Assembly: GCF_020177335.1 (NCBI RefSeq)
Contig: NZ_JAIVMG010000004.1
Location: 248,001 to 312,000 of the forward strand
Direction: 5' to 3'
DNA from: Stappia indica
GTDB taxonomy: Bacteria; Pseudomonadota; Alphaproteobacteria; Rhizobiales; Stappiaceae
Length of the DNA: 64,000 bases
Under the pieces are notes generated by a model. The model did no database searches. It saw nothing but the letters and a program-made list of their open reading frames with translations, and was not told the DNA's origin. The translations under genes and the position numbers were made by a program. Each line of letters begins with the position of its first letter. The first letter of the stretch is position 1. Shown in pieces: positions 5,633 to 62,420 of this stretch.

Positions 5633-7617
5633 TCCGCCGCCTCCTGCAAGCCACCACCGGACGAAGGATGGATCGTCAGGTCGCGAATCTCCACGTCCGC
5701 CTCGATCGCCCCCTTGCGGCCATCCTCGAAGGTGACCTCGGTCCGCACATGCTTGCGGGTGGAGCCGTCGTAGATCGCCTCGATCAACGGGGCGTAGCGC
5801 TCGGCGATGAAGGAACGGCGGACCTTCTGGGTGCGCGTCAGCTCGCCGTCATCCGCATCCAGCTCCTTGTGCAGGATCAGGAAACGCTTGATCTGCGCCC
5901 CGGCCATCATCGGCTCGGCGGCCAGATCCCGGTTCACCTGATCCACATGGTCCTGGATCATGTCATAGACGTCCGGATGGGCGGCCAGTTCCTGATAGGA
6001 GGCATAGTTGACGTTGTTGCGCTCCGCCCAGGAGCCCACCGCCGTGAGATCGATGTTGACGAACACGCCGCAGAAGTCGCGCCCGTCGCCGAAGGCCACC
6101 ACCTCCTTGACGTTGGGAAAGAACTTCAGCTTGTTCTCGATGTATTTCGGCGCGAACAGCGCCCCATCGGTCAGCTTGCCCACATCCTTGGCGCGGTCGA
6201 TGATCTTCAGATGGCCATTTTCGGCGATGTAGCCGGCATCGCCGGTCAGCACCCAGCCATCCTCGGTCTTGGTGGCGCGGGTCGCCTCCTCGTTCTTGTA
6301 GTAGCCGACGAACACGCCCGGCGAGCGATAGAGCACCTCGCCGTTCTCGGCGATCTTCAGCTCCACATCCGGCGCCGGCGTGCCCACCGTGTCGCCGAAG
6401 ATCTGGCCATCCGGCTGCATGGTGATGTAGACGCTGGCCTCGGTCTGCCCGTAGAGCTGCTTGAGATTGAGCCCGAGCGAGCGATAGAAGCGGAAGATCT
6501 CCGGACCGATCGCCTCGCCGGCGGTATAGCCGACCTTCAGCCGGGTGAAGCCCATCTGGTTCTTCAGCGGCCCGTAGACCATGATCTCACCGAGCGCGTA
6601 GGCCAGCCGGTCGCGGAAACCGACAGGCTCCCCGTTGAGAATGCGCTCGCCCACCCGGCGCGCCAGCGCCATGAAACCGTCGAACATCTTCTTCTTGAGG
6701 GGACCCGCATCTTCCATCCGCACCATGATGTGCGTCAGCATTCCCTCGAACACCCGCGGCGGGGCGAAGAAATAGGTCGGCGCGATCTCCTGCCGGTCGG
6801 ACAGAACGGTTTCCAGGCTTTCCGGACAATTGACGCAATAGCCGGCGATATAGGACTGGGCGATGGAGAAGACATAGTCGCCGATCCAGGCCAGCGGCAG
6901 ATAGGCCAGCGTCTCTTCATGCTCGTCGAGCTTGTCGAACGCATTGCCGTTGCGCGCGGAAATCACCAGATTGTCGAAGGAGAGCATCACCCCCTTCGGC
7001 CGCCCGGTGGTCCCGGAGGTGTAGAGGATCATCGCAAGGTCGCTGCCCTTGGCCGCCTTGATGCCATCGAGCCAGGCCGCCTCAAGAGATCCGTCCGCCG
7101 CCATCGCCGCCCGCCCTGCCTCTTGCAGAGCTTCGAAACTGTGCAGCCGCGTGTGGTCGTAGTCTCTCAGACCGCGCGGGTCGTCATAGACGATCTGCTC
7201 CAGCTTCGGCAGCGCGTCGGACGTGGACAGGATCTTGTCGACCTGCTCCTGATCCTCGACGCAGGCGAAACGCACCTCCGCGTGCTCCAGCACATAGGCC
7301 ATCTCCTCGGCGACCGAGTCCGCGTAGAGCGGAACCGGCATGCCGCCGAGCGACTGCGCGGCAACCATGGACCAGTACATGCGCGGACGATTGCCACCGA
7401 TGATCGCGATCTTGTCACCGGCGGAAAACCCGATGCCGCGAAGACCGAGAGCAAAGGCACGGATTTCCTCAAGGGCCTCCGCCCATGTCCATGCCTGCCA
7501 GATTCCGAGATCCTTCTCGCGAATGGCCGGACGGTCCGCGAAGACCCTGGCATTGCGCAAGAGGAATTTCGGAAAGGTGTCCTCGTCGAGGCGCTCGACG
7601 ACGGGCGACCCTGCCAT
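5629..7617 (-). CDS. AMP-forming long-chain acyl-CoA synthetase family protein
   Basis: Adenylating acid-CoA ligase, 662 aa, cytosolic. It shows the P-loop LYTSGTTGRPKG near residues 196-207, LYGQTEAS near 400 and the hinge/A8 region VLTGDAGYIAENGHLKIIDR near 460-480. The length and the N-terminal segment RDFA..PAIREKDLGIWQ-like match the long-chain (FAA1-type) branch rather than short-chain acetyl-CoA synthetases. ATG 7617 follows AGAAGGGAAG; upstream in-frame sequence is low in family character. It is the first gene of the liv-type operon and likely traps the imported acid as its CoA ester. Whether the acid is aliphatic or aromatic is unknown. Confidence 0.85.
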   Translation of the reverse strand: MAGSPVVERLDEDTFPKFLLRNARVFADRPAIREKDLGIWQAWTWAEALEEIRAFALGLRGIGFSAGDKIAIIGGNRPRMYWSMVAAQSLGGMPVPLYADSVAEEMAYVLEHAEVRFACVEDQEQVDKILSTSDALPKLEQIVYDDPRGLRDYDHTRLHSFEALQEAGRAAMAADGSLEAAWLDGIKAAKGSDLAMILYTSGTTGRPKGVMLSFDNLVISARNGNAFDKLDEHEETLAYLPLAWIGDYVFSIAQSYIAGYCVNCPESLETVLSDRQEIAPTYFFAPPRVFEGMLTHIMVRMEDAGPLKKKMFDGFMALARRVGERILNGEPVGFRDRLAYALGEIMVYGPLKNQMGFTRLKVGYTAGEAIGPEIFRFYRSLGLNLKQLYGQTEASVYITMQPDGQIFGDTVGTPAPDVELKIAENGEVLYRSPGVFVGYYKNEEATRATKTEDGWVLTGDAGYIAENGHLKIIDRAKDVGKLTDGALFAPKYIENKLKFFPNVKEVVAFGDGRDFCGVFVNIDLTAVGSWAERNNVNYASYQELAAHPDVYDMIQDHVDQVNRDLAAEPMMAGAQIKRFLILHKELDADDGELTRTQKVRRSFIAERYAPLIEAIYDGSTRKHVRTEVTFEDGRKGAIEADVEIRDLTIHPSSGGGLQEAAE

Positions 7618-57101: not shown

Positions 57102-58700
57102 TCACCCCGGCACGCTGCCGTAGAGCACCGCCGTCACCTCGCCGTTGTGATAGTCGTAGACATAGAGCGCCAGATCTCCGCTGGTGGTCGAGCCGGACAG
57201 GATCAGCGCCGAATAGGCCTGACCAACGGAATAGTCGCGGGTCGCCCAGACCGGCGCATTGCGCCGGTCATAGAGCACCAGATTGCCGTCATCCTGCATC
57301 ACCAGCCGGCCCGGCGCATTGAAGGCACCGCTCATCGCCCGCCAGAGCTGGGTGCCGGACGCATCCTGCAGGACCGGACCGAGATCGGGATCGTTGACAA
57401 GGGTGGCGCTGCCGTCGAAGGCGGAAATCGACTGCCCCGGCGCCAGGAAGCCGAGGCCCCGGCAATCGAGCCGGTTGACATCCATCATCTCGCCGGCGAT
57501 CGGCGTGCGCATCATGTCCTCGATCATCGCCTGCGACCAGCCCCGGCTCTCGTAGTCGCGCAGCGCCAGCAGATAGAGAAGCTTGGCCTGGGTGGCCGGT
57601 CCCTGCATGTCGTAATTGCCGATACAGCCGCAATCGGACAGCCAGGAGCCGGAGGCATAGGCCGTGGAGTTGACGATGCCGGCGATCACCTGGGTGCCGG
57701 CAACGATCACCATGCCGGCATCATGGGCGCTCTTCAGCACCTTGTAGACCGCCCCGCTTTCCGGATCGTCCGGGTCGCCGGAGGGGAAATTGCCCTCGCC
57801 ATAGCCTTGCAGGAACAAGCCGCCCACCTTGCCATCGCCACTGAGCGCACCTTGCAGCATGCTGGCCAGCGCACTGGTGGTTGGTGAGGCGCCGGTGTCG
57901 TATTGCGCCGGGAAGGCGAGGAAATTCAGTACATCCGCATCGTCGATATGCGCGGCCACGTAGGACGTCTGATCCTGCAGGCGGGCAAGCGCATCCGGGT
58001 CATCGAGCGCCAGCGAGGACTGGAACGGTCCCGGCGGGAACTGGCGATTGTCCAGATAGACCTCGATGCCGGTCAGATCGAGGATCGGATGGTTCGGCGA
58101 GGTGAAGGCATCGAAATGCGAGGCATTGGTTTTCAAGGTCCGGTTGCCCAGCATCAGCCGATCATCGAAGAACAGGCCGACCGCCGGCATTCCCGTGCGC
58201 ATGGCATCGATGGCGCCAAGCACGTTGCGCAGCGCATCGGTGTTGTAGAGGATCGACAGCGCGTCCTGCGGGGTCGCCCGGTAAAACAGCGGCAATTGCG
58301 AACCGGTGACCATCACCGGCTTGGACAGGATCGCATTGGCATAGCCATCCGCGCCCAGCCCTGTCAGCAGGAAGGACAGTGCCGAGGCGGTCCAGGCCAT
58401 GGTGTCCGTGCCATGCAGGATCAGAAAGGCATCATGGCTGGAATACAGCGTGGTATCGCCCGGCTGGCCGATCAACCGGGCGGCGATGGTGCACCAATCC
58501 GCCGGTTGCAGGTTGGTGCTGTCCAGCGTCGGGTCGAGATAATCGTAGCTGATCTGCGCATCCGGATATTTCTGCAAGATGGTCGGCCCCACCAGTTGGT
58601 CGAAGGCCTGGCAGAAATCCGCACCCGACAGGGGCGCGAGCGGACTGTCCACCGAACCGATGGTGCCACCGGTATAAAGAACACGGATCGCGAAGGACAT
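57102..58700 (-). CDS. Asparaginase fused to a bulb-type lectin domain
   Basis: 532 aa. Residues 1 to about 415 form an L-asparaginase (type I-like): nucleophile loop YTGGTIGS (Thr13), LHGTDTMAWTASALSF with Thr98/Asp99, VTGSQLPL (131-138) and KTNASHFDAF starting at Lys190. It would hydrolyse asparagine to aspartate and ammonia. Residues about 417-532 form a beta-prism II (GNA-like) lectin: PGQSISAFDG, then RLVMQDDGNLVLYDRR (465-480) with the Q-D-N-V-Y mannose-site pattern and VWATRDY. No signal peptide is present. ATG follows GGGAGG. This fusion is not one I know. Divergent from the next gene across a palindrome. Confidence 0.85.
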   Translation of the reverse strand: MSFAIRVLYTGGTIGSVDSPLAPLSGADFCQAFDQLVGPTILQKYPDAQISYDYLDPTLDSTNLQPADWCTIAARLIGQPGDTTLYSSHDAFLILHGTDTMAWTASALSFLLTGLGADGYANAILSKPVMVTGSQLPLFYRATPQDALSILYNTDALRNVLGAIDAMRTGMPAVGLFFDDRLMLGNRTLKTNASHFDAFTSPNHPILDLTGIEVYLDNRQFPPGPFQSSLALDDPDALARLQDQTSYVAAHIDDADVLNFLAFPAQYDTGASPTTSALASMLQGALSGDGKVGGLFLQGYGEGNFPSGDPDDPESGAVYKVLKSAHDAGMVIVAGTQVIAGIVNSTAYASGSWLSDCGCIGNYDMQGPATQAKLLYLLALRDYESRGWSQAMIEDMMRTPIAGEMMDVNRLDCRGLGFLAPGQSISAFDGSATLVNDPDLGPVLQDASGTQLWRAMSGAFNAPGRLVMQDDGNLVLYDRRNAPVWATRDYSVGQAYSALILSGSTTSGDLALYVYDYHNGEVTAVLYGSVPG

Positions 58701-58756: not shown

Positions 58757-58776
58757 CAATATACGCGCATATATTG
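58757..58776. promoter_or_regulatory. 20-bp palindrome in divergent promoter
   Basis: CAATATACGCGCATATATTG: 9 of 10 pairs match. It lies 57 bp upstream of the asparaginase-lectin start and 61 bp upstream of the divergent gene, almost central. AT-rich arms suit a TetR, MarR or GntR dimer that would regulate both genes. Confidence 0.55.
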
Positions 58777-58836: not shown

Positions 58837-59541
58837 ATGAGCCTGCATCCCAAGTTTTCCGGAATGGTACACCCCGACGACGTGCGTTTGAGCGTGGTTC
58901 TGGACCAGGCCCATGTGATTGCGCCGCAGAGCGTGCCGGTGGTCGACAAGGCGACCGGCCAGACCCGCTACGTGCAGAAATACGGGGATACGATCGAGAA
59001 CACCGGCGCGACCGTCTACGCCCCGCCGACCGATTGCGGCGGCGCCTTCATGTCCGCAAGGTTCCAGCCAAACAACAACTGCTATAATTACAGCTGCGAC
59101 ATCGCCACCAATTCCTTCGCCCAGCCAGGGCGGGCCAGCGGCATTTTCCTCGACTTCCCCCCCACCGGAGAGGCGGTTGTCGAAGGGGCCAAGGCAGACG
59201 GGCTGCAATGGCTCGGCACCGACTATCCAGTCAACTGGCTGAAGGTCGGCAACGGCCACGCGGTCGCCCTGCTGATCTCCCCGGCCAACACCCGCCTCGG
59301 CTGGCCCGGCGATTACCACTGGGTTCGCTACGACCAGACCGGCGGAGCCTGGTCGCAAAAGGATGGCGGCGATCAAGTGACGAATTTCGACTTCGCCGGC
59401 AACCCGATCACCGATCCGGCCACTGCGGACTGGACCGTCAATCAGGGACCGACCAGCCAGTCGGCCGGCGCCGACGTCATTGTCACCTATGATTTCTACG
59501 GCTACCTGATCGTCCCGCACAACCGCGTGACGATCCTCTAG
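58837..59541 (+). CDS. Unknown protein, possible papain-like cysteine hydrolase
   Basis: 234 aa, no signal peptide or membrane span. Not recognised with confidence. The centre has NNNCYNYSCDIATNSFAQPG (79-98) and later GDYHWVRYDQTGGAWSQKDG (158-177), then TNFDFAGNPITDP. A Cys in a CYNY setting, a His in YHW and an Asp downstream (Cys82, His161, Asp185 or Asp193) would fit a Cys-His-Asp hydrolase, a guess from order and spacing. Cys67 and Cys87 are extra. ATG follows GAGAGG. Divergent from the asparaginase-lectin gene with a shared palindrome, suggesting joint control. Confidence 0.6.
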   Translation: MSLHPKFSGMVHPDDVRLSVVLDQAHVIAPQSVPVVDKATGQTRYVQKYGDTIENTGATVYAPPTDCGGAFMSARFQPNNNCYNYSCDIATNSFAQPGRASGIFLDFPPTGEAVVEGAKADGLQWLGTDYPVNWLKVGNGHAVALLISPANTRLGWPGDYHWVRYDQTGGAWSQKDGGDQVTNFDFAGNPITDPATADWTVNQGPTSQSAGADVIVTYDFYGYLIVPHNRVTIL

Positions 59542-60010: not shown

Positions 60011-61183
60011 TCAGCGCGGGCGCTCGCCCACATAGCGGGCACGTGGGCGGATCTGTTCCGGCCGCTGGTATTGCTCCAGCGCATGGGCGATCCACCCGAC
60101 CAGCCGCCCGGCGCAGAACATCGACATGCCGGCATATTCCGGCAAGCCCAGCCCCCTTCGCAGCGCCGCCAGCGCAAAGTCGATGTTCGGCGCCTGTCCG
60201 AACAGCCGGGTGGCGGTGTCTGTCAGTTTCGGCAGCAACGGCACCAGCGGATGCTCCAGCCCGGCGTCAGCGATCTTGCGCAAAAGGACGGCGGCCCGCG
60301 GATCCGGCACCGTGTAGATCGAGTGGCCGAACCCGGGCAGATCCTCGCCGCGATAGAGCCGCTCCTGCATCAGGCTGTCGATATCCGCCTCGCTTTCGAT
60401 CCGGTCCAGCCACCCTTCCACCCGCTCGCTCGACGCCCCATGCCGGGCACCGGAAAAGGCACCGAGCCCGGCGCCCAGCGCCGCATGCAAGGGAGCTCGC
60501 GTCGAGGCGGCGCAGCGCACCGCAAAGGCCGAGGTGTTGAACTCATGGTCGGCCGACAGCACCAAGGCCGCCCGGATCAGCTCCGCCCCCGGCCCGGGCT
60601 GAACGCCCCAGCCGCTCGCCAGTTGCAGATGCACCGGCTCGGTCGAAGGGGCGCGATTGAGCAGCGCCGCCACGCCGACCCGGACCAATGCCGCGCCCTT
60701 TTGCTCCAGCACCGGACGTGACACCCCATAGGCGGAGGGGTCGACCATCGGCCAGGCCGCCAGCACGGTCATCACCCGCTCCAGCGGCCGCAGTCCCGCC
60801 GGTGGGACCAGCGGCAAATCCGGCGCCGGCCGGGCAAAGGGATCGGTGGCGCAATCCCACAACAGCGTGGCGATCCGCTCCAGCGAGGCGGTTTCCGCCA
60901 GAGCCACCGCCGCATGCCCGCGGTAGATCGGCCCGGCCTCATCGATCAGCGTCAGCGCGCTTTCCAGCACCGGCCCGCCGGGCGTCGACCCGCCGCCATC
61001 GGCCTCCCCGCCCTCGCGCCGGTCACGCAACAGCCGCACATCCTCCGCATGGTAGCGGCGTGAGCGTCCCGGCCCGGCAACCGAGCGGATCAACCCCCGG
61101 CTGACATAGGCGTAGAGCGTTGCCTGGCGAATGCCGAGTTCATTGGCTGCCTCCGGAGCGGAAAGGTAGACAGGTGTATCCAT
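60011..61183 (-). CDS. Citrate synthase-like protein with N-terminal MerR/excisionase-type HTH
   Basis: 390 aa. Residues 7-53 form a helix-turn-helix (LSAPEAANELGIRQATLYAY, then RSRRYHAEDVRLL). The rest is a citrate synthase fold keeping His213 (ADHEFNTSAF), His248 (ARHGA), His287 (GFGHSIYTVPDPRA) and Asp335 (NIDFALAAL). The usual HRVY after the second catalytic His is HSIY here, so an oxaloacetate-binding Arg may be lost. It may be an enzyme, a regulator, or both. Starts at ATG 61183 without a Shine-Dalgarno, 6 bp after a good -10. Divergent from a second citrate-synthase-like gene. Confidence 0.85.
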   Translation of the reverse strand: MDTPVYLSAPEAANELGIRQATLYAYVSRGLIRSVAGPGRSRRYHAEDVRLLRDRREGGEADGGGSTPGGPVLESALTLIDEAGPIYRGHAAVALAETASLERIATLLWDCATDPFARPAPDLPLVPPAGLRPLERVMTVLAAWPMVDPSAYGVSRPVLEQKGAALVRVGVAALLNRAPSTEPVHLQLASGWGVQPGPGAELIRAALVLSADHEFNTSAFAVRCAASTRAPLHAALGAGLGAFSGARHGASSERVEGWLDRIESEADIDSLMQERLYRGEDLPGFGHSIYTVPDPRAAVLLRKIADAGLEHPLVPLLPKLTDTATRLFGQAPNIDFALAALRRGLGLPEYAGMSMFCAGRLVGWIAHALEQYQRPEQIRPRARYVGERPR

Positions 61184-61185
61184 AG

Positions 61186-61204
61186 ATTGATTTTATTTAT
61201 CAAT
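61186..61204. promoter_or_regulatory. Operator-like dyads in divergent citrate synthase promoter
   Basis: ATTGAT-7 bp-ATCAAT (61186-61204) is a perfect dyad, and TTGA/TCAA half-sites repeat next to it (61206-61218). It overlaps the -10 of the HTH-bearing gene. The encoded helix-turn-helix protein is the obvious candidate to bind it and repress its own and its neighbour's transcription. Confidence 0.5.
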
Positions 61205-61218
61205 ATTGACGATATCAA
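61190..61218 (-). promoter_or_regulatory. Sigma-70 promoter for HTH-citrate synthase, leaderless
   Basis: On the minus strand: TTGATA (61218-61213), 17-bp spacer, TAAAAT (61195-61190), then CAATCT and the ATG at 61183. Transcription would start at or next to the ATG, and no Shine-Dalgarno exists, so the mRNA is probably leaderless. Confidence 0.6.
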
Positions 61219-61274
61219 CCCCCGCCCTGAATGATCCCCCACATGCCATGCAACCAGACAGGAAGGGGATCGCC

Positions 61275-62420
61275 ATGACCATCCAGACACCAGGCCTCAG
61301 GAGTGCCAGTACCGATGCCGACACCCCGGCCGGGGTCACACCGGTCACGCCTGCCGCTCCCGGCCTTGAGGGCATCGCCGTGGCCGAAACCGTGTTGAGC
61401 CATGTGGACGGGGTGAACGGACGGCTGTTGCTGCGCGGCCATGAGCTGCGCGACGTCGCCGGCACCTTGTCGTTCGAGGCGGCAACCGTCTTGCTTTGGG
61501 CGGGTTTCCTGCCGAAGGCCGATCTTGCCCGCCTGACGGACCTGTTCGCCGCCGCGCGCGAGCGCGCCAGTGCTGCCCTCCCGGCCATGTGCGCCGCGCC
61601 CACAGGGCTCGGCGTCTATGAGCGGATGCGGCTCGGCCTTGCTGCCCTTCCTTTGGCGGGAGACCTGCATCCGGCCATCGCCATTGCCGGGGCGCAGCCG
61701 CTGCTCCTGGCAGCCGCCGCCCGACTTGCCGACGGCAAGGCGCCGCTGCCGGCCGACCCGTCCCTTGGCAGCGCCGCCGATCTGCTGCGAATGCTGCGCG
61801 GCACGCCGGCGCGACCGGAGGAGATCGCTGCGCTGGAGCGCTATCTGGTGACGGTGCTCGACCATGGTCTCAATGCCTCGACCTTCGCCGCGCGGGTGAT
61901 CGCCTCCACCGGCGCCGATCTCGGCGACGCGGTGCTGGGGGCCATGGCCGCGCTGAAGGGACCGCTGCATGGCGGCGCGCCCGGCCCGGTGCTCGACATG
62001 ATCGACGCCATCGAAAGCCCCGAGGCTGCGGAGGCGTGGATTGCCGACGAGCTTGCCGCCGGACGCCGGCTGATGGGCTTCGGCCACCGGGTCTACCGCA
62101 CCCGCGACCCGCGCGCCGATGTGCTGAAGGAGGGGCTTGCCCTGCTCTCCCCCGATCTGCCGGCCCTGCGCAAGGCCGAGGCCATCGAGACGGCCGCCCA
62201 GCGCCTTTTGGCCCGGCACAAGCCGGATCGAAAGCTTCGCACCAATGTGGAGTTTTATACCGCCGTTCTGCTGGATGCGATCGGCCTGGACCGCCGCCTG
62301 TTCACGCCGCTGTTCGCGGTGGGGCGCACCCCAGGCTGGTGCGCCCATGCGCTGGAACAGCAGGCCGGCGGACGCCTGCTGCGACCCGCCGCGATCTACG
62401 TCGGTCCGGACGCCGGATAG
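61275..62420 (+). CDS. Citrate/2-methylcitrate synthase family protein
   Basis: 381 aa citrate synthase fold condensing an acyl-CoA with oxaloacetate in this family. His197 (LDHGLNASTF), His232 (LHGGAPGP), His271 with intact GFGHRVYRTRDPRA. The catalytic Asp position is Glu326 in NVEFYTA; this substitution is seen in some paralogous citrate synthases. A disordered N-terminus rich in Thr/Pro/Ala precedes the fold at about residue 30. ATG 61275 follows AGGAAGGGG; a TTG upstream is unlikely. Divergent from the HTH-bearing paralogue. Confidence 0.87.
   Translation: MTIQTPGLRSASTDADTPAGVTPVTPAAPGLEGIAVAETVLSHVDGVNGRLLLRGHELRDVAGTLSFEAATVLLWAGFLPKADLARLTDLFAAARERASAALPAMCAAPTGLGVYERMRLGLAALPLAGDLHPAIAIAGAQPLLLAAAARLADGKAPLPADPSLGSAADLLRMLRGTPARPEEIAALERYLVTVLDHGLNASTFAARVIASTGADLGDAVLGAMAALKGPLHGGAPGPVLDMIDAIESPEAAEAWIADELAAGRRLMGFGHRVYRTRDPRADVLKEGLALLSPDLPALRKAEAIETAAQRLLARHKPDRKLRTNVEFYTAVLLDAIGLDRRLFTPLFAVGRTPGWCAHALEQQAGGRLLRPAAIYVGPDAG

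Follow-up and report, generated by a model that had tools for sequence, protein, structure and literature searches.

We analysed a 64,000-nucleotide stretch of the Stappia indica genome (the window), in which an asparaginase-lectin gene encoding 532 residues occupies positions 57102-58700 of the minus strand and a second gene, NCY, encoding 234 residues, runs divergently from it on the plus strand (58837-59541). An earlier note on this DNA had placed asparaginase motifs and a lectin motif in one frame. This was borne out: TGGTIGS, HGTDT, TGSQ and QDDGNLVLY share one common frame in a single minus-strand open reading frame, with its stop codon at 57102-57104; the plus strand of the same interval translates as a different, interrupted frame. 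The ATG is preceded by a Shine-Dalgarno-like GGGAGG six bases 5' of it, and the start codon is supported by the N-termini of relatives, which align there. Judged from its sequence, the 532-residue protein is an asparaginase genuinely fused to a monocot-mannose-type lectin domain.

The type I-like asparaginase catalytic region comprises residues 1-408 (57477-58700, minus strand), and its catalytic residues are complete. The protein exceeded the Pfam cut-offs for Asparaginase PF00710 (2.4e-29, 102.7 bits compared to 22.5) and Asparaginase_C PF17763 (2.3e-13, 50.6 bits compared to 34.6), and both domains were matched (E <= 0.1) in 33/33 aligned family members. These alignment counts refer to 33 of the 36 loci of the family, omitting two whose start is cut off by the contig (L020 and L028) and one with no lectin (L045). 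Residues T13, S61, T98, D99 and K190 were conserved in all 33 rows; we take them to be the counterparts of the E. coli AnsA catalytic residues T14, S60, T91, D92 and K163. The curated NCBIfam cut-offs were missed, with 138.9 bits compared to 260.5 for type I asparaginase (TIGR00519) and 173.3 compared to 376 for AnsA (NF006998). The solved asparaginases nearest to the protein are type I enzymes, of which the E. coli member is titled cytoplasmic. By these scores the asparaginase part is a relative of AnsA, not a standard AnsA, and its conserved catalytic residues predict that it is probably active on asparagine.

The lectin domain (B_lectin/GNA-like; residues ~417-532, 57105-57452, minus strand) was assigned from a profile and a structure model. 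The earlier note had looked to Pfam for both parts of the protein; this succeeded for the asparaginase domains but not for B_lectin PF01453, which gave E 0.026 and 15.5 bits for the single sequence compared to a cut-off of 32.4, so that on Pfam alone the tail came close to having no B_lectin match. PF01453 was matched by 12 of 33 family members at E <= 0.1 (best 0.0025). A PF01453 search of the source genome overlooked even the fusion's own lectin domain, and its empty result is no evidence of absence. The NCBIfam putidacin L1 family (NF033557) matched residues 430-503 at 7e-7, yet scored 28.9 bits compared to a cut-off of 275. When the 532-residue protein was searched against PDB with phmmer, lectin II (1kj1) was matched at 2.4e-7 over residues 438-490 and pyocin L2 at 2.1e-8 over residues 461-493. 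Fold-library searches with the whole protein returned match lists filled by the asparaginase part.

The identity of the tail was supported by a profile built from 25 of the 36 tails, excluding L020, L028 and L045, close relatives (L012, L023, L032 and L033) and members with a degraded lectin (L039, L042, L043 and L044). It matched 34 PDB sequences at E <= 0.01, led by gastrodianin-4 (2.4e-16) and putidacin L1 (4e-16). All of the 34 but one, which bears the name "secreted esterase", either carry lectin, agglutinin or lectin-type bacteriocin in their names or belong to proteins with this fold (gastrodianin/GAFP-1, curculin/neoculin, a LysM protein and a 12-kD storage protein). An AlphaFold2 model consisted solely of strand and loop over residues 424-527, with block means of the predicted local distance difference test (pLDDT) of 72-93 over residues 421-530.

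The stretch QDDGNLVLY (residues 469-477, 57270-57296, minus strand) is the predicted sugar site from motif conservation. It follows the QxDxNxVxY pattern as defined in PMC3585409, and its residues were kept in most relatives (Q in 28, D in 30, N in 29, V in 29 and Y in 26 of 33 rows), with at least four of the five intact in 28 of the 33. The strand groups on either side are without the motif, which leaves one canonical group of three. Because only the middle group has an intact motif, the tail probably carries one sugar site instead of three. According to PMC3585409, known monocot mannose lectins may have degenerate sites; that paper also reports a valine-to-tyrosine site mutation in LlpA, for which the matching valine here is V475.

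The earlier note had proposed a search for the same architecture across genomes, and such a search recovered 36 loci: 34 from a scan of genome contigs, the source window and a copy on a Vibrio plasmid (42% identity). The contig scan used the C-terminal half of the fusion and confirmed 34 loci out of 73 candidates; it is no gauge of family frequency because it was seeded on two short peptide patterns. The nearest named relative, in Stappia taiwanensis, was 97% identical, and relatives outside Stappia were 37-49% identical. Recurrence at the latter distance argues that the fusion is not a chance or assembly join. Among 61 genomes (the source and 60 relatives), 3 carried the fusion, all within the 14 of the same genus, and it is therefore not a core gene. 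One further genome of the same bacterial family held a lectin-less relative at 54% identity. By record title, the holders belong to Pseudomonadota, Acidobacteriota, Myxococcota, Bacteroidota, Cyanobacteriota and Actinomycetota. The loci of Acidobacteriota, Bacteroidota, Cyanobacteriota and Actinomycetota come from metagenome bins only, and the lectin motif is degraded in Cyanobacteriota (3/5 residues) and Actinomycetota (1/5).

NCY adjoins the asparaginase-lectin gene in 27 of 36 loci (28 copies). Invariant in 28/28 NCY rows were N80, N81, C82 and Y83, H141, D159, H161 and W162, and WSQKDG at residues 172-177. No Pfam or NCBIfam family was matched at E <= 1, the sole match of an NCY profile among PDB sequences was FliL (E 1.1), and fold searches gave weak papain-like matches. 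NCY is predicted to be a cysteine-histidine hydrolase, possibly of papain-like fold. Among 398 Pseudomonadota genomes, it was found in 2 beyond the source, one being the Pseudomonas genome that holds locus L034 and the other giving a distant partial match. A stand-alone distant relative with NNCYNY, GHYVAL and DYHW motifs was seen on a plasmid of Rhizobium ruizarguesonis that is typed as conjugative (L068:5566-6396); NCY belongs to a wider unnamed family. Two tandem NCY genes precede the asparaginase-lectin gene in Colwellia psychrerythraea (L033:5132-6876). In Polyangium (L022:7074-9539), asparaginase-lectin and NCY form a single 821-residue frame, the linker of which resembles a read-through of the usual spacer.

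The presence of NCY was associated with the state of the lectin motif. NCY accompanied 24 of the 28 rows that kept at least four of the five motif residues, compared to 1 of the 5 rows with fewer (Fisher p = 0.008, relatedness ignored). When the nine genomes with NCY-less loci were searched in full, one yielded a distant partial copy and the other 8 no NCY; genome G022 gave none either, and all three control genomes with a known NCY were detected.

Fuller loci carry two more genes. A C45-like Ntn hydrolase was present in 12 of 36 loci, P2, a relative of NTAN1, also in 12, and the two together in 10; NCY was also present at every one of the 14 loci with either gene. The C45-like protein begins with MCTIG, with an invariant Cys2, and contains HSTYLRL (12/12 rows). 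It missed the curated cut-offs of PF03417 (21.5 compared to 23.2 bits) and NF040521 (38.5 compared to 85 bits), and its profile had one match among PDB sequences (E 0.2). In a Bugula-associated member of the Rhodobacteraceae (L027:9528-10316), the C45-like gene is dissimilar to its relatives past approximately residue 212, as if the frame were broken.

P2 passed Pfam PF14736 in three of three proteins tested (27.7, 27.8 and 33.0 bits compared to a cut-off of 24), and its profile matched human NTAN1 at 1.9e-9. One P2 gene lies at positions 6232-7128 of the Marinomonas locus L035. According to PMC7022378, NTAN1 catalysis involves Cys75, His92 and Ser69, and the peptide is contacted by Gln51, Thr73, Thr74, Ser254, Thr255 and Glu260. 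In the alignment, P2 residues S46, C52 and H71 correspond to NTAN1 S69, C75 and H92, and Q28, T50 and S51 to Q51, T73 and T74; all were invariant in 12/12 rows. In a second stretch that aligns weakly (E 4.5), S242 and E248 pair with S254 and E260 and are likewise invariant, and T243, which falls at Thr255, is not. A search with PF14736 over the 398 genomes found nothing; that sample very likely included a carrier (G319), so the result is no evidence of absence.

The gene orders seen were C45-P2-AsnLec-NCY, AsnLec-NCY-C45-P2, P2-C45-AsnLec-NCY and NCY-AsnLec-P2 (AsnLec, asparaginase-lectin). Linkage of the module thus persists while its gene order changes. Neighbouring module genes were separated by at most 68 bases in 45 of 52 pairs and overlapped by 4 bases in 9. 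In a Stappia metagenome-assembled genome (L013; bin G001, 89% completeness and 7% contamination), the C45-like gene and P2 are paired with each other on a different contig. Apart from the module, no gene family recurred in the vicinity of over 6 of the 36 loci, with neighbours not systematically annotated. By eye, the largest such families resembled a LysR-type regulator (at 6 loci), an ABC-transporter ATPase (at 5, including 3 in Stappia) and a copper-type P-type ATPase (at 4, including 3 in Stappia); others were frames that overlap the module genes or lie antisense to them.

We infer that the module, sporadic in its distribution, probably spread by horizontal transfer. The family tree required 7 changes for 6 phylum groups, a number as low in 200/200 shuffles; grouping by phylum was thus no better than in shuffles, which fits transfer without proving it. 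The 21.6-kb stretch with the Vibrio plasmid copy also contains transfer genes. Within Stappia, 11 congeners have the SCP2 gene and no fusion, and the copper ATPase and citrate-synthase neighbours were not found within 1.5 kb on either side in them; we therefore make no claim of an insertion. A phage origin was rejected, as 15 viral-contig loci matched the lectin end only. Of 50,697 phage records, 7 matched the fusion, none over 80% of the query, and searches of viral contigs with the NCY and P2 profiles confirmed nothing.

Sporadic occurrence, as of NCY among the 398 Pseudomonadota, and the transfer genes beside the plasmid copy would also suit an anti-phage or abortive-infection module, in which the lectin would sense an invader glycan and the asparaginase, together with its partners, would deplete the cell of asparagine. 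However, none of the four module proteins had a PADLOC match at E <= 0.01, PHROGs yielded one weak hit, which fell in the lectin region and is of unknown function, and the plasmid is typed non-mobilizable. We dropped this explanation on the absent PADLOC match and regard it as very unlikely.

The lack of a signal peptide, as claimed in the earlier note, held across the family. By a simple hydropathy test, no export-like N-terminal stretch was found in 34 asparaginase-lectins with a start in the contig, 11 C45-like proteins or 11 P2 proteins, and 1 of 26 NCY proteins was slightly over the threshold. The test is crude and its threshold was chosen by us; L020 and L028 were omitted, and for NCY of L022 the row starts within a longer frame. 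These N-termini speak for a cytosolic rather than a surface location, and are still compatible with non-classical export. The module therefore probably works inside the cell.

The earlier note had also suggested that a sugar-targeted asparaginase could act on host or competitor surfaces. An exported or injected effector depleting asparagine there would agree with the resemblance of the lectin domain to lectin-like bacteriocins and with the animal host given in the title of one holder ("ex Bugula neritina"); we take further holders to be host-associated. Against it stand the absence of export-like N-termini in the fusion and, apart from the one borderline NCY, in its partners, the type I character of the closest asparaginases, and the lack, among neighbours not systematically annotated, of any extra gene family recurring at more than 6 of the loci. 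We dropped this explanation on the N-termini and the neighbours and consider it unlikely. The other alternative in the earlier note, a lectin that binds an intracellular target, would suit the data better than surface targeting.

Taken together, these results led us to a reading to which we give a probability of approximately 0.5: the asparaginase-lectin is an intracellular, probably active enzyme and the constant member of a mobile amide-attacking gene module, in which the lectin serves for docking. Its core would be asparaginase-lectin plus NCY, to which fuller loci elsewhere add the C45-like hydrolase and the NTAN1-type deamidase. The asparaginase part would remove the side-chain amide of free Asn and P2 that of N-terminal Asn, and NCY and the C45-like protein, which have other folds, would likely cut amides as well. 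The set could thereby strip amide groups or acyl-amide caps stepwise from an Asn-containing peptide or conjugate within the cell, and the lectin domain may dock the asparaginase onto the glycosylated substrate of NCY or onto NCY itself. A bolder version is doubtful: a mobile amide-stripping system of lectin-guided asparaginase, NCY, C45-like protein and N-terminal-Asn deamidase that acts sequentially on one class of Asn-bearing glycopeptide or natural product, or that rewrites bacterial N-terminal Asn in the manner of the eukaryotic N-degron pathway.

Several observations weigh against a docking module. Profile searches found neither C45-like protein nor P2 in the source genome, which holds the two-gene core only, and at four loci NCY is missing despite an intact lectin, which makes the lectin-NCY rule loose. 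The motif is absent from two of the three strand groups of the lectin, and lectin-less members of the family exist (L004, from G022, and L045). The last two points favour an ordinary asparaginase for Asn use, with a lectin tail that is structural (stability or oligomer contacts) and has no sugar ligand, and with neighbours linked through amide nitrogen metabolism. This is the main rival because the asparaginase-lectin was the sole match to PF00710 in the source genome, in a search limited to the PF00710 class. It is possible, and we hold it tentatively at well below even odds. It is countered by the presence of the fusion in just 3 of 14 genomes of the genus, by the retention of each motif residue in 26-30 of 33 rows and by the decay of the motif that accompanies NCY absence.

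The 136-base spacer between the divergent genes contains, near its middle, a 20-base palindrome, CAATATACGC/GCATATATTG (CAATATA-N6-TATATTG), at 58757-58776 (no strand). With up to 2 mismatches the pattern, which was picked after sighting, occurred once in the window and in 0/100 shuffles; with up to 1 mismatch it had a single site in the 4.66-Mb source genome. It is conserved in S. taiwanensis and not clearly in a third Stappia. The palindrome may be an operator common to the asparaginase-lectin and NCY pair. A scan for sigma-70-type promoters found none, and one terminator-like site was found, fewer than in shuffles. Farther along the window (60014-62417), each strand carries a citrate-synthase-like gene, and one of the two genes has an HTH_17/MerR-like region at its N-terminus.

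The earlier note knew of no described asparaginase-GNA lectin fusion, and we found none among the matches listed in the open PubMed Central (PMC) library, outside which lie subscription papers and preprints. The component folds are individually known; their combination is without description among those matches. Nor did they include a naturally occurring asparaginase that has a glycan-binding domain of its own, in a class heavily studied for leukaemia use, or, by title, a paper on bacterial NTAN1. The word "lectin" occurs 0 times in the available part of PMC9500103. The partner genes, absent from the earlier note, shift what the finding is about. They make the role of the fusion testable, bringing an unnamed hydrolase-like family and bacterial NTAN1 relatives into one small set.

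Compared to known systems, the nearest solved kin are L-asparaginase I of E. coli (2him and 2p2d) and guinea pig asparaginase 1 (4r8k), from which the fusion differs by its additional C-terminal lectin domain and by scoring under the cut-offs that NCBIfam sets for type I asparaginase and AnsA. It has the domain family and the QxDxNxVxY motif in common with monocot-mannose lectins and LlpA bacteriocins (gastrodianin 1xd6, putidacin L1 3m7h, pyocins L1 and L2). However, LlpA lectin-like bacteriocins are a tandem of two lectin domains, whereas the fusion has a single enzyme-borne domain with one canonical site. The C45-like partner has weak family matches to the C45/AAT Ntn hydrolases (PF03417 and NF040521) and misses both curated cut-offs. 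P2, found at related loci, shares with NTAN1 (6a0e and 6a0f) the triad and several of the residues that contact the substrate, and differs from it in being bacterial and part of a gene cluster.
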